Source: Mya arenaria (taxonomy: Eukaryota; Mollusca; Bivalvia; Myida; Myidae). Taken from it: a stretch of 64,000 bases of DNA. Under the pieces are notes generated by a model that searched no databases, was not told the origin of the DNA, and saw only the letters and a list, made by a program, of their open reading frames with translations. Position 1 is the stretch's first letter. Every line of letters starts with the position of its first letter. This document shows, in pieces, positions 20,501-39,542 of the stretch. A program made the position numbers and the translations under genes. The stretch lies in assembly GCF_026914265.1 (NCBI RefSeq), contig NC_069123.1, positions 53,457,973-53,521,972 on the forward strand, given 5' to 3'.

Positions 20501-23179
20501 TACAGTCATAAATGTGACCTCTAGAGTGCTAACAAGCTTTTCCTATGATTTGACCTGGTGACCTAGTTTTTGACCGCACATTACCCTGATTTAAACTTGA
20601 CTTAAAGATTATTAATATGATCATTCTGACCAACTTTCATGAGGATATAGTCCTAAATGTGACCTCTAGAGTGTTAACAAGCTTTTCCTTCAATTTGACC
20701 TGGTGACCTAGTTTTTGACCGCACATGACCCACAGTTGAACCTGACCTAGAGATTATTACTATTAACATTGTGACCAAGTTTCCTAAAGATACAGTCATA
20801 AATGTGACCTCTATAGTGTTAACCAGCTTTTCCTTTAATTGACCTGGTGACCTAGTTTTAACCCCAGATGACCCAATATCAAACTCATCAAAGATTTTAT
20901 TGAGGGTAACATTCTGACCAGGTTTCATTAAGATTATGCCCAAATTGTGACCTCTAGAGTGTTAACAGTCAAATTGTTGTCGACGGACGACTACAACAGA
21001 TGACCCACAGGGCAATCACAATAGCTCACCTTGAGCACATCGTGCCTCTATTAAGTTTAACCATTTTAATCACTCTCATTTGCCCGATGTTGCGTGGTCA
21101 TGTGATGAGAGGAAAACCAGAGTACCCGGAGGAAACGCACTTGTCCGACTTGGTGACCACAAAAACTATTTTAAAGTAAGGGGGGGAAAGATATAAATGC
21201 AAACCAAAGGCTATAACTAGGATGGTTGTGATGGTAACAGGTTATTACCTCCTTTTCGTTAGGTATTTAATATGCATAAAAAAATTGAGTACAATATTTT
21301 ATTTTTTTATAATTCTACAGAAGTGCCAAGTAATTTTAAAATCCTACAGTATATATTTTTCCTTTTAAGGTGGCAAATACAAACAATCAGTTGTCAGTTG
21401 TCATACCATTGGCTATGGTTTCAAACTTAGGTTAAAAAAAAACAACATTTGGTTCGGGTTACCCGACCCTACCTACGGAATAGGTGCCGACCCTACCATT
21501 TTTATAGTCATTTTGAAAAAAAATAGTGAAAAACTAAAAAAAAAAATATTTTTTTTTTAAATTGCTTTTCACTTTGTTGAAAACCTTAAATGCATATACC
21601 GAAGATAACTTTAACACCATTATCCAATGATGAAAATGACATTCTTATATAAAGCCTAATAAAAAAAGAAAAAAAAAGCCTACCTATATTTTAAAAGGAT
21701 GTAACCCTAACCAAACTTTTTTTTTTAGGCCTTATGTAAGGAAATGAGCAGAATTTCAAACACTTATATGCACAAGAACAAAACAGAACGGCTGATTGGT
21801 AAGAAGACGCAATGTAAGCTTTTGCTTAATTTTGTATTAACAGTGGCGACTCTTACCTTTCCATGCTGAGGGAATTTTGCAAGGTGATTTATCGTTTTCT
21901 TTCCCGAATAATCATGCTCAAGAGCAATCCATTGTTTCAGCATTTTTGACCTGAACTCCTTTGAACCATCCCAGTCTGTTAGGACATCAACATCAGAGTC
22001 AAATTCATCGTGAACAATTTTACACAGCTCGTCTGGCTGGTCAACTTGTTGCTTCTGTTTCGAGTTTGATTTTGCTTTCTTTATGTTTTTTTTACCCTTA
22101 CTGAGGATAATGGGTTTTTGCCTGGATTTTCCCACCTTACGAATGTGTCTACACTGAACCTTAAAAGATGAATAAGGATTTTCTTTGCAACCATCAGATG
22201 ATATTTGTGAAGCAACTTGCTTGTCAGAACAATATGTTTTGCTGCATTCAAAGTCAAAGCTAATATTTGGCACATTTAAATATTTTTCTTGTTCCTCTTG
22301 CATTTTTCGATTTTTTCGTACAGTTTCATCGCCATCTACATTATTGGACTCGCCATCTACATTATTGGACTGAGTAAGGTCATTGTGGGATACAATATGT
22401 TCAATACATGGTCGTTTCCTTTCTCCTTTCGCTGAATCCTGGACAACAACATGTTTAGGGCTATGACGATCACTACGTTGATTATGTACTAGACGTATAC
22501 CCTCGTCACACCTCGGGATCTGTATGAAAGGATTCTTTCTATCTTTATTTTTACATTGCAAAGAATGACACTGTCCAAACAACTCAGCAAAGTTTAAGTT
22601 AGCTAATGAGTCTAATTTCATATTAGTATTAACTCGCTGTACGCCAAACTGAGAGAAGTTCTGTATTTTGTTTTGTTCTAAGCATTGCTTTATTGATGAT
22701 ATTTTGCCAAACGACTGATCAGTTGAATTGAGACTTTCTGAGTTTTTAGCTATGGAATCATTTAATTGTGATGCTGACAGGATGCCTTTGTAATTGGTGA
22801 CTAATGGCTTGGTGTTTCCAATTAAAACTGTTCCATTGCCATTATCATAAAGATTATCATGTTCTTCTTTTATTTCGGGCTTTATAACGATATTGGTCCA
22901 CTTTGGTTTGGCCCATTTATCACAATTATTTTCATCACCAATGATATCGGTAAGATAACAAGATGGTGCTGACGACTGTGCGCCCATGTGCATTTCATTT
23001 TCGGACTTTACAAGCTGATTACAGTTGTCAAACACTGTTTTTTCCTCATCTTTTAGTCCAAGATCTATCTCTTCATAATCAGACGAATCATAATCGCTGG
23101 CTACTTCAACCTTGAACTGATAGCGTGGGTCAAGGCACTCACTAAACATTTCATTACTATTGTATGTAGCCTGTGTCAT
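17585..23179 (-). CDS. Divergent Myc-like bHLH-leucine-zipper transcription factor
   Basis: Two coding exons on the minus strand: 23179-21857 (441 codons) and 17935-17585 (116 codons plus stop), joined in phase 0 by a GT-AG intron of 3.9 kb; 557 aa. The start chosen is MTQATYNSNE, 8 nt inside an exon whose acceptor is CTTTTCAG at 23188; the frame continues upstream only through that intron. The N-terminal half is acidic and polar (SDYDSSDYEEIDLGLKDEE) with no Myc box that I can see. The second exon holds the basic region VMHNSLERKRRHEM with the H-E-R pattern that contacts E-boxes, helix 1, a loop longer than in MAX, helix 2 (TKKGIIQRALQQIEKL) and a loose zipper. The two-exon layout with bHLH-Zip alone in the last exon matches vertebrate MYC. 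It could instead be a lineage-specific MYC/MAX-network member. Confidence 0.75.
18297..18804. mobile_element. TIR-bounded repeat with an internal tRNA-like promoter
   Basis: It begins TTTAAAGGGACTGTACACC and ends GTACAGCCCCTTTAA, so the ends are inverted repeats of about 14 bp. Inside, the minus strand carries a tRNA-like A box and B box (see separate entry). Elements with both terminal inverted repeats and tRNA-like boxes are unusual. It lies in the single intron of the Myc-like gene. Confidence 0.6.
18431..18505 (-). repeat. tRNA-related SINE head (A and B boxes)
   Basis: On the minus strand TAGCACAGTGGATACAACA resembles an A box region and CCAGTTCGAACCCGG a B box, about 40 bp apart as in tRNA-derived SINEs. 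It cannot be a working tRNA: the acceptor stem does not pair and I see no cloverleaf. Confidence 0.6.
18886..19033 (+). mobile_element. GGCC-MITE copy A (internally deleted)
   Basis: It starts GGCCTAAAAAAAA and ends TTTTTTTTAGGCC, with TTTGGTTAGGGTTAC just inside the left end and GTAACCCGAACCAAA inside the right end. It is flanked by TGA on both sides, a 3-bp target duplication. At 148 bp it lacks most of the interior found in full copies of about 330 bp. Confidence 0.85.
19690..21055 (+). repeat. Dispersed bivalve repeat with about 145-bp tandem core
   Basis: It opens with ACAAGAGGGCCCTAAAGGCC and TGTATCGCTCACCTG and closes with TGTCGACGGACGACTACAAC and AATAGCTCACCTTGAGCAC, a common start and end for such repeats. 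Between about 20100 and 20950 are roughly six units marked TTTGACCTGGTGACCTAGTT, then GACC(C)A..TT.AAC, then ATTCTGACCAAGTTTCATG, then AAATGTGACCTCTAGAGTG. It lies in the Myc-like gene intron. Confidence 0.8.
21430..21731 (-). mobile_element. GGCC-MITE copy B, reverse orientation
   Basis: It is the reverse complement of copies D and E. It starts (+) with a degraded GG(CC)T(T)AAAAAA end, then CATTTGGTTCGGGTTACCC and CTACCTACGGAATAGG, and ends ACCAAACTTTTTTTTTTAGGCC-like. TTA flanks both sides (21427-21429, 21732-21734), a 3-bp duplication. It lies in the Myc-like gene intron, just downstream of its first coding exon. Confidence 0.82.
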
Positions 23180-23499
23180 GTTTAGATCTGAAAAGATATA
23201 TTGATACAATTTAACATCAACATCTATGGCACAAGTCATCGTGCTAGAAGCTCAACACGAAAGTTGAAAAATAAACAAATATTAAATAAAATGAATGCAT
23301 GCATTCTTTTATCAAGTTGCAAGTATCGCTTTTAAAGGCAGGAATAATTTGAGATATATACATGTATCAAATCATGACTATATAGTTTATTTATGAAAAA
23401 ATGGCAATAAATGTAATTATAAATGTACAAAACAGTCATGTACACTTTCATATATATTGTTGGATCAACGTGTTTTCGGAATGGTACAACATAGGATAG

Positions 23500-24215
23500 A
23501 GAGTGTTATGACCATGACCTTTGACTCTATGACCTCTAAATCCATAAAAGTCCTCAGTTGGTCACCAAAAATCTAAATGTCATGTTTGAGGGCCCGATGA
23601 CCCCTTAAGTCAAGAGGGGTCATCTACTGGTCAGGCCCGGCCTTCATGTCAAGTTTGATGACCATAGGTCCAGGAATTGTTGAGTTTGCTTTCAAGATCA
23701 CTGTGGCCTTGACCTTTGACCCCTAATATCAATAGGGGTCATCTACTGGTCAGGCCCAACCTTCAAGTCAAGTCTGAGGGCCATGGGTGCAGGCATTGTC
23801 GAGTTATCACTCAGACAACCTTTACCATTCAAGGTCACTGTAACCTTGACCTTTGACCCAATGACCCCCAAAAACAATAGGGGTCATCTACTGGCCAAGC
23901 CCAACTTCCATATCAAGTTTGATGACCATAGGTCTAGGCATTGTTGAATTATCACTCGGATAAACTTTAAAATTATTTTACCATTAAAGGTCACTGTGAC
24001 CTTGACCTTTGACCTGATAAGCCCTAAAATCAATAGGGGTCATCTACTGTTCAGGCCCAGCCTTTATATTAAGTTTGATGACCATACATCCAGGAATTGT
24101 TGAGTTATCACTCGGACAAGCTTTGGTCTACCGACAGACGGACGGACGGATGGACGGACCGACCGACCGACATGTGCTAAGCAATATACCCCTCTTCTTC
24201 ACAGGGGGGCATAAT
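23500..24215 (+). repeat. Tandem repeat rich in GACCTTGACCTTTGACC
   Basis: There are about four units of roughly 145 bp, marked AGGTCACTGTGACCTTGACC, then CAATAGGGGTCATCTACTGG, then CAGGCCCA.CCTTCA, then GGCATTGT(C/T)GAGTTATCAC. It closes with a GACGGACGGA-type run and CATGTGCTAAGCAATATACC, which is its usual end. Further copies lie at 26040-26590 and, diverged, at 38410-38680, 49130 plus 51790-52400, and 62730-63080 (reverse). It lies just upstream of the known exons of the Myc-like gene. Confidence 0.8.
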
Positions 24216-24840
24216 TACAGTCACATTACATCAGCATATTAGCCCTACAAGTGCTCATGCTGACATCCTCATTATTTTAATGTAGCCTTATTGTTCTTGT
24301 AAGAACAATGTCAATAATTGTGCAAAATACTGAGTCAACTGAATAAAGGGTATAGAAGTTCCCAATTTGCCCTAAAACTTTAACATGCCCTGAAACTTTA
24401 ACCAAAGTTCCTATGTAAATCAAGGGCCATAATTTGTGTTGAAGATAATATGGATTTATGTTACCTCATTTTGTGATGATCATGAACTACTATGTGAAGT
24501 AGTACAGTAAGTGAATTGAATGAAGTGTATTTAAGTTATTACTTAATACCTCAACCTGCCTTTAACTTCAACTTTAGTCAATCAGGGCTGAGGGGCCATA
24601 TTTTGTATTAAGGATAATATTGAGTATTGAAGGGTATTGGGAGTTATAAGTTAAAAGCCAACCTGCCTTACAGCTTCTTCAAATAGTCGAGCTAAAATGC
24701 TTGGTAGTAATGATAGCCATGACTGCATGTCAAAAAGGGGGAAAATCTTCCTGTATAAAACTACAAGGCGCAATGCGGAACGCTACATTATAGCTTTGCC
24801 ATTGATAATTAGGTTCTTTTTCCAAATGGATGTTTGGTTA

Positions 24841-25042
24841 GGCCTAAAAAAACAAATTGTTTGGTTAGGGTTACATCCTTTTCAAAAATAGGTAGGGTAG
24901 ATAGGCTTTTATTTATTTATTTATTTTTTTTTTATTAGGCTTTATATAAGAATGTCATTTTCATCATTGGAGAATGGTGTTAAAGTTATCTTCTGTATAA
25001 GCATTTAAGGTTTTAAACTACATATTGAAAAGCAAAAAAAAA

Positions 25043-25074
<32 letters not shown>

Positions 25075-25107
25075 GTTTTTCATTTTTTTTGTTCAAACTG
25101 ACTATAA
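24841..25107 (+). mobile_element. GGCC-MITE copy C, left part (split copy)
   Basis: It is preceded by TTA and begins GGCCTAAAAAAACAAATTG. It follows the family sequence through ATCATTGGAGAATGGTG and stops exactly at AAACTGACTATAA, about 75 bp short of the expected end. The missing right part is found at 31687-31761. See findings for the insertion that separates them. Confidence 0.85.
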
Positions 25108-26039
25108 TCAAAGCGCTGAAAGCGCTGCAAGACTGTCGGTGACGTAACTGAAGCAAGCAAACACTACCGCAAAGTTCTTTCAAATGAAACGTGATCAAAT
25201 GATTTCATACAAATGATGAACACTCTTTAAGGTAGATGAAGAAGGATAAATGTGATTAAAATAAGCACAAATATATTGGCCCTACTTAATCATGTATCCA
25301 ATGGCCTACAAGATTCTAAATTCAAATTCCCCAATTTTGAACCGCTTTAAATTAGTTAAATGCATATTCATTATGTTAAAATCGCTTCAATTTATGACGT
25401 CGCTTATAACAGTTTCAGTATACAATTACATTCCTTTATTTCATTAGGGTCTGTTGAAGCCAATGTCTTTAAAATGCAAATACAATACAAACTATACCCA
25501 AGATTCAAGGGACATAATAAAAATATAACTTTAAAATGATGCTCTTTCAAGCCTAAAAATGCCTCCCAGAACTTCTATCAACAGAGTCCACATATCTACA
25601 AAATTTGTGCTCGAGTTACTTTCTTTGATATAAAAGTGAAAACAAATCTGCATGGTGCTGTGGCATCATACCAGGAAAAAAACTAATATCTTTAAAATTT
25701 GTTTTCTAGTTTGCTTTTATTATAAGTGTTAATAAATCTGCATGGTGCTGAAGAAAAAAAACTAATGTCTTAAATTTCAAACCTGCAGCATTAATTAGCG
25801 CCATGTTGTCAAGAATATCTGGACAATTGAATGAAATATGCATGGACCGAAATGACAGCTGGTTTTTCATTGACAAAAGATGCCTTTGAGGCAGTTTTAA
25901 GATTATGCTATTCAAAGTATGAGGGTAGTTGGTACAGTTTTCACTCATATTCAGATGACGGCTGATATTTGCTGATAAACATGTATCCTCTTAGCAGCAG
26001 GGAATAAGTAAATGACATAGTTTTAATGACCAATATTGG

Positions 26040-26595
26040 AGATGTGACCTTGACCTCCAAATCCAAAGGGGTCATCTGCTGGTCACCCCAAACCTAAATT
26101 TCAAGTTTGAAGGCCATGGGTGCAGACTTTGTCGAGTTGTCACACAAGCAAGCTTTTTGCGTTCAATGGTCTGTGACAAATCAATAGGGCTCACCTTTGT
26201 CCAGTCATTATTAGTACAACCTTTAAGCATTCAAGGTCACTGTGACCTTGACTTTTGACCCAATGACCCCTTAAATCAATAGGATCTTCTAATAGTCAGA
26301 CTTAGCCTCCATGTTGAGTTTGAGGGCCATAGGTGCAGGCATTGTCAACTTATCAGTCAGATGTATGGTTTGACACCTTCCTGTTCAAGGTCACTGTGAC
26401 CTTTGACCATTTTACCCCTAAAATCAAAAGGGGTCATCTACTGGTTAAACCAAACTTTCATGTCAAGTTTGACAATAGGTCTAGGAATTGTAGAGTTATC
26501 ACCCGGAAAGCTTGGGTCTACTGTCAGACAGAAGGAGGTAGCTGCCAACATGTGCAAAGCAATATACTCCTCTTCTTTGAAAGGGGCATAATAAA
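26040..26595 (+). repeat. Second GACCTTGACC tandem repeat block
   Basis: It has the same units as at 23500-24215: AGGTCACTGTGACCTTGAC (26234) and AGGTCACTGTGACCTTTGAC (26388), then GGGGTCATCTACTGG, and the terminal CAACATGTGCAAAGCAATAT. Short open frames over it are repeat artefacts. Confidence 0.75.
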
Positions 26596-27836
26596 TTGAA
26601 ATTGATTAAATATTTTTGTTTATTATGTTAATTAACTTACACTACATACAACAAGTACCATTTTGATATTTTCGAATGCTCATTTGGGCATGTACATGGG
26701 TTTTGATCTGACTATGAACATGAAACTACATAGTGATGTTCCCTCCTATCAATTCTAAATTTAAATAACCATGAGAAAATTTTTTCACTGCACCATGAAT
26801 AAATATGTCAAACAAAATAAATGTCAAGTTATTCAAGATTAATTTAACAGTGTTCTTTTGATGATTTCCGTGCATTCCTGACTGCAGGTTTTTCCCATTT
26901 TCCCACACAGTTATTTCATATTGGCCTTACAAGGTCAGATCTTGAGTTGGGTCTTCATTGCTGGACACTATCTCTTTATCTCCACAGAAAACACACTGGT
27001 GCAAGTTTCACTGCAACAACTGCAAAAAAGTTATATTATATTCTAACTGAACTCTGCATCAATATTCAATTATTTTTTATTGGATTTAGGAAATGTCTTT
27101 GTTTTAAAGGGTTCATATAAATTAATGCATTTTTTTCAATTTAATGCATTATCATGCTGGACTCTTTGACATTGATGGTTAAAACAAAGAAGGCATATGA
27201 TTTGTGTACAGATTAAACATTATTAATTATAAATGTGTTCTTTAATTAATAGACAAGTGGCAACAATTTCCCCAGTTAAAAAAGCTTACATTTGTATATC
27301 TGCAGATTAATCATTTGCATTTCTTTTGCTTTGATCATTTTAAGTCAAATGAGTTAGACATGATAATGCATTAAAATAAGAAATATATTTTTGGGCATCA
27401 ATCTATAGTGTGTGCCTTCAATCTAGAAATAAATTTCTTCTCAACAGATGCTAAATTATAAAAAAATATATAAACCAAGATTTTGATTATGACATACCTG
27501 CATAGTTAGTGGTCTCCATAACTGCTCAGAAATGCTCCCTATGACAAACTAAGTGCTGGTGTATGGCTGGGTAATAGTGCTGCTCCAACCAATAGCGCAA
27601 TTCTTCCTACAGGTGGACCAGCTCCTCAATATGGTTTCTGTCATGGCAGTGATAACAGTATGTAACATGCCCTTTTCTACTTTCCAGAGAATGAATCTTT
27701 CAATCTAAATTACAAATTTAAGAACAAATATATACATATGCACATGTAATTTTGTTAAAAACAAACCATTTAGATGCCACAAAACTATAAGATTTTAGGT
27801 GAAAATTGAGCCAAATCAAAACATTTAGTCATTTAA

Positions 27837-28187
27837 AGCTGCACTCTCACAGATTTACTGTTTTTACAACTTTTGTATTTTTTGTCTTGGAATGACCTAT
27901 TTATTTTGCTAAAATATCTGCAAACCAGTGATATAAGACTACTGACAAAATATTAGATTGCAGACTTCCATATTTCAGGTCAAAAACAAAGGTTTTATGG
28001 CTTAAAGCGTTACTAACGGTTTAAGAAAAATGCATAAAACATTTTGAACTTAAATATAAACATTTTCTGACAAATTTATTGTCAGCAATCTTATATGAAT
28101 GGTTAACATGCATTTTCACATAAATTGGCCCGTTCCAAGACAAAAAATAAATAAAGTAGTCAAAACGTTCAATCTGTAAGAGTGCTG
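27837..28187. mobile_element. AGCTGCACTCTCACAG MITE, copy 1 of an abutting pair
   Basis: It is preceded by TTAA and starts AGCTGCACTCTCACAGATTT. It ends near CAATCTGTAAGAGTGC, the complement of the start. The middle contains AAAAATGCATAAAAC as in the 17008 copy. It directly abuts copy 2. Confidence 0.7.
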
Positions 28188-28602
28188 CACTCTCAGTCAC
28201 AGATTGAAGGTTTTGACAACTTCTTTTACTTTTTGGCTTGAAATAAGCTAATGAAAAGCAGTATGAAAACTGATGAAATAAGACTGCTGACAAAAGATAA
28301 GATCATGTTTTTTATATTTACATTTGTAACTATTGGTTTTATGGTTAAAAGCATTACTAACGCTTTACTAATAATGAGATTTTTGGCATAGAACATCATC
28401 TTTTGACCGTATTAAAATAAGAAAACAGCATTCCAATATTTTCAGTTGTCTTTTTTGACTGAATTAATATAAGAAAGCAGCGATCCACTTTTTCCAGTTG
28501 TCTGTTATGTCCAGTGTTCAGAAATTCGCATAAAATAATTCATTACAAGACCAAGAAATAAAAAAAGAGTTGGTAAAACAGACAATCTGTGAGAGTGCAG
28601 CT
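28188..28602. mobile_element. AGCTGCACTCTCACAG MITE, copy 2 of an abutting pair
   Basis: It starts TGCACTCTCAGTCACAGATT and ends ACAATCTGTGAGAGTGCAGC followed by TTAA. Together the pair is bounded by TTAA on both outer sides. Insertion of one copy into the terminus of the other, or tandem duplication, would explain this. Confidence 0.65.
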
Positions 28603-28642
28603 TAAACATATGGCTACACAACCAGTACATTCATCAGCTTTA

Positions 28643-28703
28643 CTGATTCGAACCAGGCACATTTATATTGGTAGACTAGCATTTTACCATTCTGTGCTGG
28701 CCA
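28643..28703 (-). repeat. tRNA-like SINE relic
   Basis: On the minus strand TGGCCAGCACAGAATGGT resembles an A box and GTGCCTGGTTCGAATCAG a B box. No functional cloverleaf is seen. Confidence 0.45.
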
Positions 28704-29149
28704 GTACAATTCTCATTTGAATTAGAATTCAAAATGTATATACCTTTGTTCTTTTTTTCGCCAACTCTGTTTCAACTGAACTTCCTAAATGAATGAGAAG
28801 TTTCAAAAAATAATTACAATATCTCAGTAAATACCTGCATTTATGTGTTTCTTGTGCAATCTGTCAGCTTTGGTAGGCTCAGGTTTCATTTTGTCCACCT
28901 CAATACTTGTAATCTTCTAGTCTGATGTCCTGCCATCCAATTTTTAAGTCAGGTCAGGCAGCCATTTCAGCTTTGTTCCAGTTGATTGTATCAGATGATG
29001 TTAACAATACTAGCCTTGTATCCAGGCACTTCTCAATCTGAAAGTTTACAAAAGAACATGGCCTGTAATATTTAATAAAAAAAATCATAATTGTTTACTC
29101 CTGGATGATGGGTTCTAAAGTAAACCTTTGAGAAAAGATGCTACTTGTA

Positions 29150-29212
29150 TGGTGCTTGAACCCACGACCATGTGAACACTTGCATGGAGATCTGTCAAAC
29201 TGAGCTAACCGG
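29150..29212 (-). repeat. tRNA-derived SINE head
   Basis: The minus strand reads GGTTAGCTCAGTTTGACAG (A box) and GGTCGTGGGTTCAAGCACC (B box) 30-40 bp apart, close to pol III consensus. There is no paired acceptor stem, so this is a SINE and not a tRNA gene. Confidence 0.6.
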
Positions 29213-29303
29213 GTAACCGATTTTTAGGCAGCTCCCAGCTTGGCTCTACAATTGACAGGTGCATTATACATTATAGAGACAATAAATCAAACACTTGAAG
29301 CAC

Positions 29304-29822
29304 TAGTCCAGATAATAGTAACTTAACTGATCTTTTTACAAATTTTGAAATGGCATATCCTTCACATACAATTTTTTTGTACCAAAAGTGGGTAGCTATT
29401 CCGATTGGGATTCCGGGTCAGATAATTATATATATCTAAAATATGAGTTATGTACGCAAAAAATAAAAGCTGACAAATTATTATGAGTTTGATGAGTGTT
29501 TTTCTTCATTTCATACTGTCAAAACATAATGATATAAACTGTTATACATGAAGATCACCGGCAAGGCTGCGGTGCATAGATTTACATAGATGTAAAATGG
29601 TTGTGTTTAAATGCATTAAATGCTTGTTTTGTGAAAAAAATCTTTGCACTTACATGGTAATAACTAAAATACGAATATAAACCTTTAATATCTATTTCAA
29701 ACATATAATACTTATCAAACTACGATTTCAATATCTTTCAACCCCCACCCTGTTTTGCACAAACCCGATTAGACGTAAGGGATTGGAAGAATCCCATATA
29801 ACACGTCTATTTTTTTAGACTA
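29304..29822. mobile_element. TAGTC-ended MITE, 519-bp copy
   Basis: It starts TAGTCCAGATAATAG and ends ACACGTCTATTTTTTTAGAC-TA. It is flanked by TTGAAGCAC (29295-29303) and TTGAAGCAT (29823-29831), a 9-bp duplication with one mismatch. The interior matches the 30078 copy (GTGGGTAG..ATTCCGAT and TTATGAGTTTGATG). Confidence 0.78.
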
Positions 29823-29944
29823 TTGAAGCATAATTATATGTTCTTTTTTGATGGTTGAGACGTTTCAGGTTAAACAATAATTAAAAATGCGAAATAATTT
29901 TAGTGAATAATCACCTCTGAATTGAAAGTAACATGAAGATGTTG

Positions 29945-29956
29945 TAGTGAAGGATT

Positions 29957-30008
<52 letters not shown>

Positions 30009-30057
30009 TTTTTTTTAATCGTAAAAAGAGTCCGTCAACGTACAAATATTTAGACTA
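29945..30057 (-). mobile_element. Short TAGTC-type MITE fragment with (TA)n
   Basis: It reads AAGGATTTGCC, a TA run of about 42 bp (29960-30003), then TCCGTCAACGTACAAATATT and TAGACTA. This is the left end of the family in reverse orientation. AGATGTTG occurs close to both ends. It sits between two longer copies, making a three-element cluster. Confidence 0.55.
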
Positions 30058-30077
30058 AGAGATGTTGATGTACCTTC

Positions 30078-30858
30078 TAGTCCAAATAATTGTACATTGA
30101 CAGATTTTTTTACGATTTTTGATACAGCAAATCCTTCACGTACAAATTGTTTTGTACGAAAAGTGGGTAGTCATTCCGATCGGGATTCCGGGTTAAATCA
30201 TATTGCATCTATAACATATCATAAAAACAAGAAATATTACCAGATAATGTTATTTTATATAAATTCCGTAACCAAAAAGTAATATCAAGCAAATAATTAT
30301 GAGTTTGATGGTTTTTTCTTTATTTCATTCTGTCAAAACATAACAATATATACATGAAGGGCACCTGCAAGGCTGCAGTTCACAATTTTACAACAATCGG
30401 AACATTTCGGCCATCAATTGTAACAACTTGCCATCTTCGGTAAGCTTCGAGATAGTCAATCCCTGTTGGATACTGGCTGAGGTGTTCAGATTGTTTGGCC
30501 AAGGCCGAGTTGTTACGATTGTATTATCTCGAAGCTAGTCGGAGGTGGGCGAATTATTACGATTGGGTCAAGTTGTTCCACTTGGAATAATTGTTGTCTG
30601 TGTCAGTCAACTTTCCTTTTAATGAAAAGGTAAATAATGTGTTTTAATGCATTAAATGCTTGTTTTTTTTGCAAAATAGCTTTGCACTTCCATGGTAAAA
30701 TATGAATATAAATCTTAACTTTATTATCCATTTCAACCATAAAATACTTCACTTAATACAATTTCAATATTTTTCAAACACCCCCGCTTTTTGCACAAAA
30801 CCGTTTAGACGTTAGGGATTGGAAGAATCCCGTATAACACGTCTATTATTTCAGACTA
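30078..30858. mobile_element. TAGTC-ended MITE, 781-bp copy with 10-bp duplication
   Basis: It starts TAGTCCAAATAATTGTACAT and ends GTCTATTATTTCAGACTA. ATGTACCTTC stands immediately before (30068-30077) and after (30859-30868). This is the longest copy and the best-defined target duplication of the family. No transposase is visible. Confidence 0.85.
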
Positions 30859-31686
30859 ATGTACCTTCGTGTCCGAAATCGATCATTTCCTGGCAGCTCA
30901 TTTCTGGATTGTCTCCATCTAAATTTAACATTTTTAGACGCATACATTGATGCCATTTTTGCTTCGATTGATGTTAAAGCAATAGCACTAAATACAGGTC
31001 GGTTATTTTGTAGAAGAACGTGTTCGAAGTAACATTCAATTTCATTTCCGCATAATCGCCGCCATATTGTATATGACTTCAAAAACTACACCCTATAGTC
31101 CAAAATAACAATAGGCATAACGTTGACATACTGTGATAGGTACAATCCAAATAATTTACTCAAACAAATACACTAGTTCGATTGCTGCTGAAAAAAATCA
31201 CTTGAAACATAAAAGCTATTTCACAAAATATTACATGACATGAACTCTTTAACCGCGTATGATTTATTTCTTAATAGCTTTCATTCATAAAATAAGTTCT
31301 TTGCCGGGGTTTGCCGGGTCAGTCTTGAATGCCGGGATATGTGTGACGTCATGTCATGTGGCGTAGCTTACTATTGGATGTAGGGTAAAATGACTTCGTA
31401 TGTAAATGCTATACTTTCATTATTTTTCATTATTTTGTTCAATAAAACTCACCAAATTGCAACGGTACAACTATACTAAGAGTAACACGCAATGTTTGTC
31501 ATAAAAAGGCAATAACGCGTTAAATACACATAAGCAGGTACTTGACGCCCCACATTCACGTAAGTAGTTCTGTTGCTACGCAGGTGGTATGTATTATTAT
31601 ATTCATGTTCAATATGTCGTGTCGGGCGACTAGTCGCGTTTCTGAAATACCGCTCTCTAAAGACTGTCGGCTTGCAGCCGACAGTC

Positions 31687-31761
31687 TAAAAACGTTAGGG
31701 TCGGCGCCTATTCCGTAGGTAGGGTCGGGTAACCCGAACCAAATGTATTTTTTTTTAGGCC
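31687..31761 (+). mobile_element. GGCC-MITE copy C, right part
   Basis: It resumes at TAAAAACGTTAGGGTCGGC, continues through GGTCGGGTAACCCGAACC, and ends TTTTTTTTAGGCC followed by TTA (31762-31764), the same triplet that precedes the left part at 24838-24840. This supports the two parts being one original insertion. Confidence 0.85.
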
Positions 31762-32079
31762 TTAGTATGCATTAAAAAAAGCTTTCTACCACTTAATTGT
31801 TTTGTTTGGAGCAGATCTATAGTAAAAAAAAAGATCAAATATTTTAACCAAAATTCATGAAGGTAAAACTTTTGAAAGAAAAAAATGTGCATTCAGATTT
31901 GTGTTAAACTGTTAATAGATTAGCAAGTGACTTAGCTGCAGGTTTAATTATTATGATGGGGGTTTGTGTCTCTTAGATTTGACGTTATGACCTATATTTC
32001 TGACCAGATGTGATCCATATTCATAACTGTTCAAGACAACGTGCAGACAAGCAATCTTACCAAGTTAAATACTAAATGG

Positions 32080-37714: not shown

Positions 37715-38071
37715 ATTGAAACTGCATCGGTTATCTTTGAACAGCCGCATTTTGTTTGGCCGACATAATAAGAAGACACAACTTTTAAACTAGTTACCTG
37801 AGAACACGTATATTGCAAATTTATTATTACGGGTGATTTTTGAAAACATCAATTTCACTTCATTTTTTCAATCTTAAAATCATTATAACAGCATACATTT
37901 CTGGAATGTGCGACATACGCCTAAGGAAATAACTTTTTTGACAGATGAGGTATGAAAATATTTGTTACTGCTTATCAAAGACTATGCTATATTCTGCTTT
38001 CTGGTTTGTGCGTACAATATTTTATTATTATATTATTTGCTTGTATTCTAATAATCCCGCAAAATATATTG

Positions 38072-38402
38072 GGCCTAAAAAAAAATGTTTGGTTAGGGTT
38101 ACATCCTTTTCAAAAATAGGTAGGGTAGGTAGGCTTTTATTTTTTTTTTATTTTTTTTTTATTAGGCTTTATTTAAGAATGTCATTTTCATCATTGGAGA
38201 ATGGTGTTAAAGTTATCTTCTATATAAGCAATTAAGGTTTTAAACTACATATTGAAAAGCAAAAAAAAAAAATTTTTTTTTTTTTTTTTTTTTTTTTAGT
38301 TTTTCATTTTTTTTTTCAAACTGACTATAAAAACGTTAGGGTCGGCGCCTATTCCGTAGGTAGGGTCGGGTAACCCGAACCAAATGTATTTTTTTTTAGG
38401 CC
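38072..38402 (+). mobile_element. GGCC-MITE copy D, full length (331 bp)
   Basis: It starts GGCCTAAAAAAAAATGTTTG and ends CCAAATGTATTTTTTTTTAG-GCC; TTG flanks both ends (38069-38071, 38403-38405). Inside are ATAGGTAGGGTAGGTAGGC, TCATCATTGGAGAATGGTG, an A-run facing a T-run, and GTTAGGGTCGGCGCC. It serves as the reference copy. Confidence 0.88.
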
Positions 38403-39542
38403 TTGGCCAAAATTTCAGCGTTGTATCGTTCTACTAAATTCTGAAGATAATGATGGCACTGAGCTCAATCGTCCTTCAATTTTTAAAGGAAACGGATCTA
38501 AAGCTAAATCTTACCCTGACCTTAAACTTTGACCCACTGATCTCAAAATCAATAGGGTCCACCTGATGGTCACTACCAACCTGCCTACTAAGTTTCAGCG
38601 GAAAACCATCTCCAGGACGGACAGGCGTTTCGATAACTATATATTATCATATGTGCCGTCCTTCGGAAGGCATAACGTTGTTTTTTTTTTTTACTTTCAA
38701 TTGTAAAAAACGAAAAACGAAAAGACGGTATATACACGGACATAACAATAAACCAATTTTATTTAAGACCATATGTACATAGTTAAAATGCAACAATAAC
38801 TAAAATAAGTACAATATGCAAAAATAGTTTAATGCTATGATAAACATAGTGATACTCTTGCTGTCATTGCTTCAAAGTTCTAGATTTTATATAATGCATT
38901 CTTCATTTATGTGATCAACCACATATGTGGGTTTACGTAATTAACCAGATTCATATAGATCTGACAAGTATAATTTGTAGCTATACAAAGTACATATCAT
39001 TATGTAGAGCTAGTCCATTTAAACAGCCGCTTCAGAGTCTTTGACGATTTTTGATTTTGCGTTTAGGGAAAAAGCTGAATATCAAAATGTTAAAAAAATT
39101 ACCTAAACGCGCATTATTGTGGCTAATTACTGTAGAGCTATCTAAACAGTCTTTGAAGCAATTGCAGCAAAAGTATCAGAACGATTTGTTAAATTATGTC
39201 AAAGTTATTTTACTAGAACTGTCTATACAGTCATCCAAATTTTAAGTAAAACCGTAAACTGAGGAGATTATTTAAAAGTTTCAAAAAGTATCTAAACTCA
39301 TTTCGGGTATAACACAACGTTGTGTGTTTGTCCAAGGGAAAGCACTTTTTATTAGTGGGACATCCTTCAGCACATAATTATTTCCCTTATTTTTGAATTT
39401 GTCATTTTAAATAAAATTTTATTCATGTGTATATCAAAGGAAAACTATTTATAAGAATGCATGGCTACATATATATATATGTAAAACAAGCCCAGAGATG
39501 ACTCAAATACATGTTAATAGTTTAGTTAGAGTTGGCACTTAG

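Follow-up and report, generated by a model that had tools for sequence, protein, structure and literature searches.

Helentrons and Helitron2 elements are the described rolling-circle transposons closest to the element reported here. Canonical Helitrons have a 5' TC and a 3' CTRR terminus, with a palindrome about 11 bp inside the end, and insert between A and T (PMC4067079). As characterized in the same paper, Helentrons and their non-autonomous relatives, the Helentron-associated interspersed elements (HINEs), have inverted repeats inside their ends, a 3' stem-loop and T-runs at their borders, and insert without duplicating the target; the HINEs covered in its section 7 are simple deletion derivatives. 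In Helitron2 elements (PMC3627910) the asymmetric terminal inverted repeats (ATIRs) are placed unequally: the 5' ATIR lies 0–2 bp from the end, inside a 5' hairpin, and the 3' ATIR is found about 20–30 bp inside the end, with a hairpin downstream of it. Helitron-1N1_CRe, an example given there, inserts after TTTT.

The locus analyzed here lies in a window of 64,000 nucleotides (C2:53457973-53521972) of the Mya arenaria genome, which comprises 1.216 Gb in 18 contigs (C2 and similar labels denote contigs). In this window a 6.6-kb segment interrupts a miniature inverted-repeat transposable element (MITE). We consider it very probable that the segment is a non-autonomous Helentron (a HINE) with ends of the Helitron2 type. 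Recurrent fixed ends, a common target, empty sites, no evident coding capacity and the presence in the genome of a Helentron with the same ends together place it in a HINE family. It is filed as a HINE because this partner has an endonuclease and the Helentron signature in its Rep protein; the ends alone would fit Helitron2 equally well. The family is a new one of a known kind of element, and the genome holds a matched pair of Helentron and HINE.

A single MITE copy is interrupted by the segment

The MITE concerned, copy C (24841–31761), is broken by an insert of 6,580 bp at 25108–31687. The site is made up as follows:

24838–24840, plus strand: TTA, left outer duplication of the MITE (read from the sequence)
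24841–25107, plus strand: left part of MITE copy C (aligned with the unbroken copies D, E and B and with the copy in stretch L055)
31688–31761, plus strand: right part of MITE copy C, opening with the target AAAAAC at 31688–31693 (aligned with the intact copies)
31762–31764, plus strand: TTA, right outer duplication of the MITE (read from the sequence)

Copy C runs from CTGACTATAA through the insert to AAAAACG, and CTGACTATAAAAACG is the sequence expected at its site without the insert. The empty site reads CTGACTATAAAAAC in copies D and E as well as in a fourth intact copy, found in stretch L055, and ATGACTATAAAAAT in copy B. Compared with these, the filled site has two extra bases, AA (25106–25107), which are the last two of the left part. 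The insert is delimited as 25108–31687, and the extra bases as AA, because the final T pairs within the terminal hairpin and is present in every exact copy of that hairpin.

We also considered that two different MITE copies had been joined by rearrangement or misassembly, with no insertion at all. The evidence comes from a single assembly only and to that extent leaves room for such a joining. However, of the MITE copies within the window, one and the same unbroken copy, D (about 38069–38404), is the closest match to each half, the left half at 94% over 270 columns and the right half at 100% over 77 bp, and the outer TTA agrees. Moreover, the point where the halves meet is uninterrupted in four copies, and the insert is bordered by the ends of a repeated family. 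A joining of two copies thus retains next to no probability: both halves are one interrupted copy and the insertion is real. The initial annotation of this stretch had already recognized a MITE split cleanly by a 6.58-kb segment with its outer TTA preserved, and both observations stand. It had taken the duplicated bases to be TAA, whereas the T belongs to the hairpin and the extra bases are AA.

Terminal structures and orientation of the element

The element and its ends are, in window coordinates:

25108–31687, minus strand (5' to 3'): very probable non-autonomous Helentron (HINE) of 6,580 bp (empty sites, recurrent ends, no long open reading frame)
31661–31687, minus strand: 5'-terminal hairpin with a 12-bp stem and a 3-nt loop (DNA fold; 150 exact genome copies)
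31678–31687, minus strand: 5' ATIR, or subterminal inverted repeat (subTIR), AGACTGTCGG, directly at the 5' end at 0 bp (repeat search; layout of PMC3627910)
25130–25139, minus strand: 3' ATIR, CCGACAGTCT on this strand, 22 bp from the 3' end (repeat search; layout of PMC3627910)
25112–25126, minus strand: 3'-terminal hairpin with a 6-bp AGCGCT stem and a 3-nt loop (fold; same bases in the autonomous copy)
25108–25139, plus strand: 32-base left end (184 exact genome copies)

On the plus strand the segment starts with TCAAAGCGCTGAAAGCGCTG and ends in the larger hairpin. On the minus strand this hairpin reads AGACTGTCGGCT-GCA-AGCCGACAGTCT; its fold has −13.9 kcal/mol and a z-score of −7.76 against shuffled sequences. 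The minus-strand 3' end consists of CCGACAGTCT followed by 22 bases containing AGCGCT-TTC-AGCGCT, and the two ends of the element read TTTGA and AGACTGTC. With up to one mismatch, AGACTGTCGG has six matches where 1.29 are expected, and all three exact ones lie inside the element. Its occurrence at 25130–25139 and its complement at 31678–31687 form an asymmetric inverted repeat, as in the subTIRs of Helentrons and HINEs, and the two terminal hairpins, with ATIRs at distances of 0 bp (5') and 22 bp (3'), reproduce the Helitron2 layout. The longest open reading frame (ORF) in the element, counted from an ATG, GTG or TTG start, is 90 aa, the listed ORFs being of 80, 88 and 90 aa. Based on the end layout plus the strand of the partner's Rep (see below), the coding direction of the element is assigned to the minus strand.

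Read in the orientation of the window, the segment might be taken for a canonical Helitron with a 5' TC and a 3' CTAA after a hairpin, as the plus strand does start with TC and can be trimmed to end in CTAA. In such an element the hairpin would lie about 11 bp inside, whereas here it touches the end, and the insertion would fall between A and T rather than in a run of A. Asymmetric inverted repeats are present as well, and the partner's Rep is encoded on the other strand, with a Helentron signature and a C-terminal endonuclease. A canonical Helitron was rejected on the position of the hairpin, the target and the Rep signature, and we regard it as very unlikely.

Target site and extra bases

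Directly beyond the hairpin, AAAAAC (GTTTTT on the coding strand) adjoins 85 of the 150 exact hairpins, against about 0.2 expected; its background in the window is 0.0011 per position. An earlier count of flanks, with AAAAAC in 30 of 36, was biased, as the query ran 13 bases into the flank. Three of the 85 hairpins with AAAAAC (C9:37012954, 37113369 and 37713066) have a loop sense opposite to that of the other 82.

Contiguous empty sites were obtained with 3 of 13 queries made of joined flanks, in the sequence compared. The C12 site is represented by a local duplicate (97% over 176 bp) that reads ATGT and then AAAAACG. The C3 site lies in a tandem array (about 80%), where seven printed alignments have AAAAAC (three) or AAATAC or TAAAAC (four) at the junction. 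In both cases the filled site has two additional A on the left. For C7, the empty site was sought with stretch L029, one of five pairs inspected, and none was found.

Since AA directly precedes 163 of the 184 exact left ends and is precisely what the empty sites lack, a cut-and-paste or tyrosine-recombinase element with a fixed duplication of 2 or 3 bp (AA or TAA) had to be weighed. The base at position −3, however, is T in only 11 of 19 flanks, a set chosen in part with a query starting with TAA, so that no TAA rule holds. Furthermore, among the left ends detected with a shorter 22-base pattern, 32 do not have A at position −2, and 7 of the 32 are paired with AAAAAC right ends at most 16 kb away; there the left side is not a copy of the right one, and a fixed AA duplication therefore does not hold. 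A Helentron with the same ends, found in a genome search aimed at Helitron-type Rep, also speaks against such an element. With a variable −3 base and left ends with a single A paired to AAAAAC, a fixed TAA or AA duplication was rejected, and a transposon of this type is extremely unlikely. Insertion into a T-run without a strict target duplication, as seen at three empty sites with a variable number of A, is a trait of Helentrons and HINEs, and a variable count of terminal T, as proposed in PMC4067079, fits the flank data. By having a G before the T-run, the target may be stricter than the 'TT in T-rich DNA' of the literature.

These results revise much of what the initial annotation had said about the ends. 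It had correctly given the start of the segment, its terminal hairpin and the sequence common to both borders, which is confirmed as AGACTGTCGG. The hairpin itself holds, but its stem, put at 11 bp, has 12 bp with a 3-nt loop once the final T is included. The segment had further been described as terminating in an unusual way, without inverted termini and without the target rule of rolling-circle elements. All three statements were wrong, because the wrong strand had been read and the comparison made with canonical Helitrons only: AGACTGTCGG and its complement are inverted, the insertion adjoins AAAAAC, and the published layout and target preference of Helitron2 and Helentrons fit. The resemblance to rolling-circle elements noticed at the time is borne out by the Helentron with the same ends.

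An autonomous Helentron partner on contig C5

A search of the genome with the Helitron_like_N profile gave 85 matches, one of which lies on C5, 4.2 kb from an exact hairpin. It is part of a 15,448-bp element (C5:8818954-8834401) that starts with TCAAAGCGCTGAAAGCGCTGAAAGACTGTCGG, ends with the same hairpin as the 6.6-kb family and is flanked by AA on the left and AAAAAC on the right. The C5 element and the 6.6-kb family have in common about 143 bp at the hairpin end (93.7–98.5%) and 36–40 bp at the other end (95–98%).

On its minus strand the C5 element carries the domains Helitron_like_N (PF14214; 1.9e-29), PIF1 (1.8e-28) and a C-terminal Exo_endo_phos (3.2e-08). Motif 2 of its Rep is FYRVEFQQRGSPHIH, with S between G and P and F/Y-x-R before it; S and F-x-R in this motif mark Helentrons (PMC4067079, section 7). 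An upstream frame of 657 aa matches DUF6570 (7e-16) and Herpes_teg_N (3.4e-09), and tegument-like deubiquitinase domains are known in Helentrons, including those of molluscs (PMC9741609). A candidate for the RPA-like second protein of autonomous Helentrons is a 106-aa frame further on, with matches to OB-fold profiles (SHLD2_OB1 at 1.9e-07, over the cut-off; REPA_OB_2 at 1.2e-05, under it). The neighboring frame (158-aa part of 201 aa) gave HIN at 0.18 only and nothing in the PDB with an E-value of 1 or less.

The hairpin-side 1.76 kb of the C5 Helentron recurs three times, at C10:3.40 Mb (99%), C3:7.06 Mb (96%) and C10:15.06 Mb (95–97%, in two pieces), and every match stops in AAAAAC just beyond the hairpin. 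At three of the four places, the C5 copy included, a Helitron_like_N match is located 3.8–4.2 kb away on the expected strand. Chance alone predicts 0.24 such neighbors within 20 kb for the 85 profile matches as a whole, given the 85 AAAAAC right ends. Of the remaining 82 matches, not one has any of these 85 right ends, the set compared, within that distance.

On C17 (55611897-55624498), four tandem units with a spacing of about 3.4 kb are 83–87% identical to hairpin-side parts of the Helentron and form a tandem array of Helentron pieces.

Recurrence and divergence of the family

The 27-base hairpin has 150 exact copies in the genome, counted on both strands as it is palindromic except for its loop. 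For the left end, the 184 exact 32-base copies are accompanied by 287 matches of a 30-base core with at most three mismatches. Pairing of the ends was counted on contigs 1–5, for which both end listings are complete. There, exact left ends number 43; in 21 cases an exact right hairpin is found on the same strand at a distance of 3.8–10.6 kb, and a single hairpin neighbor within 20 kb is on the opposite strand. The borders thus recur together, a check that the initial annotation had suggested.

Both exact ends are present in 13 of 18 stretches, consisting of the window plus 17 more; 11 of these 17 were picked because both ends were already listed there. Eight copies shorter than 7 kb differ by 1.7–2.4% in every pair, a uniformity that looks as after one burst, and five longer copies (7.4 to 15.1 kb) have additional blocks in their interior. 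The first 150 bp show zero differences in any pair of the eight copies, against about 2% inside, but these copies came from lists ranked by end identity, so the comparison is biased. In an unbiased check, 184 exact copies among 287 matches make 64%, somewhat under the 208 (72%) predicted at 1% divergence per copy, and the idea of unusually conserved ends was dropped.

Some individual copies and neighbors deserve mention. A short copy of 3.8 kb (C5:24990277-24994120) has two hairpins separated by 208 bp that appear to be oppositely oriented. On C8, two pairs of same-strand left ends (60347039/60349745 and 61750606/61753137) are 2.5–2.7 kb apart, perhaps as a duplicated tandem or a one-ended insertion. 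In the window, diverged 156-bp tandem repeats immediately left of the MITE (23717–24124) are related to the repeat-rich part of the element near 26.2–26.6 kb (73% over 423 bp). Beside the element, an open frame of 491 aa (21764–23239, minus strand), perhaps a host exon, has no Pfam match above the cut-off.

Proposed mechanism and weighing of the evidence

Going by the common ends, the C5 Helentron is the likely mobilizer of the 6.6-kb family. The Rep-helicase-endonuclease of this or a sister Helentron, acting in trans, would recognize the common ends and nick the donor at the 5' hairpin/ATIR end. One strand would then be peeled off while it is re-copied (rolling-circle, peel-and-paste), with termination at the 3' ATIR and hairpin, and the freed strand would be joined to a T-run opened by a nick. 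Terminal T, one or two of them (A when read on the plus strand), would travel along or remain from the nick, leaving no strict target duplication.

Several observations weigh against a HINE mobilized in this way. The link between the family and its presumed mobilizer is drawn from the ends that they share. Between the C5 Helentron and the 6.6-kb element the interiors show weak matches (about 65–70%, at most 330 bp) in a repeat-rich stretch; as the 6.4-kb interior is mostly unlike that of the Helentron, the element is not a simple deletion derivative of it, in contrast to the HINEs of PMC4067079 (section 7). The fold of the 3' hairpin is weak (z −1.81): 9 of 200 shuffled sequences do equally well. 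Some Helitron2 elements carry RepHel in the opposite orientation (PMC3627910), so that the direction of the element cannot be read from the Rep strand alone. One Helentron copy, that on C5, was followed from end to end, and it may be inactive, given an in-frame TGA (C5:8830673-8830675) that separates its frames of 657 and 1380 aa; at C10:3.40 Mb, none of the 85 Helitron_like_N matches is nearby. Finally, on contigs 1–5, an exact right hairpin within 20 kb is lacking for 22 of the 43 exact left ends; these may be diverged, truncated or one-ended copies.

A more far-reaching proposal is that this lineage has a sequence-specific target of about six bases, GTTTTT, in which the G is required and which is set by the endonuclease, and that in its main passenger family nothing but the ends (about 143 and 36–40 bp) is retained, around some 6.4 kb of unrelated DNA. 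We put this forward tentatively, as a possibility that we are somewhat inclined to doubt.

Comparison with known systems

Literature searches in open-access PubMed Central showed no title or abstract that describes this pair of Helentron and HINE, which does not in itself show that a description is absent. With several empty sites and more than 100 copies of the ends, it becomes possible to measure the target rule and how many extra T are present, points that PMC4067079 leaves open in its section 6. Apart from the pair and a possibly stricter target, the element is otherwise ordinary.

Like the HINE and DINE-1-like elements of PMC4067079, the family has subterminal inverted repeats, a terminal palindrome, insertion into T-runs with a variable extra T, no strict duplication, no coding capacity and a Helentron partner in the genome. 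Unlike those elements as presented there, it is 6.6 kb long with an interior largely unrelated to its partner, and its target seems to carry a G before the T-run. With Helitron2 (Bao and Jurka, PMC3627910) it has in common a 5' ATIR at the extreme end inside a 5' hairpin, a 3' ATIR 20–30 bp from the end followed by the 3' hairpin, and, with the Helitron-1N1_CRe example, insertion after TTTT. It differs in that the partner has a C-terminal endonuclease (Exo_endo_phos), according to PMC4067079 a mark of Helentrons that is absent in Helitron2, and in that the 7–19 bp duplications reported for the CRe elements in PMC3627910 do not occur here. The Pacific oyster Cg_HINE (PMC7492417) is similar in its HINE ends, T-rich sites, lack of duplication and bivalve host. 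It has central satellite-like repeats, and, in the account given in that study, the authors could not tie the oyster elements to an autonomous Helentron; in M. arenaria a linked one was found, giving a matched Helentron and passenger in a bivalve.

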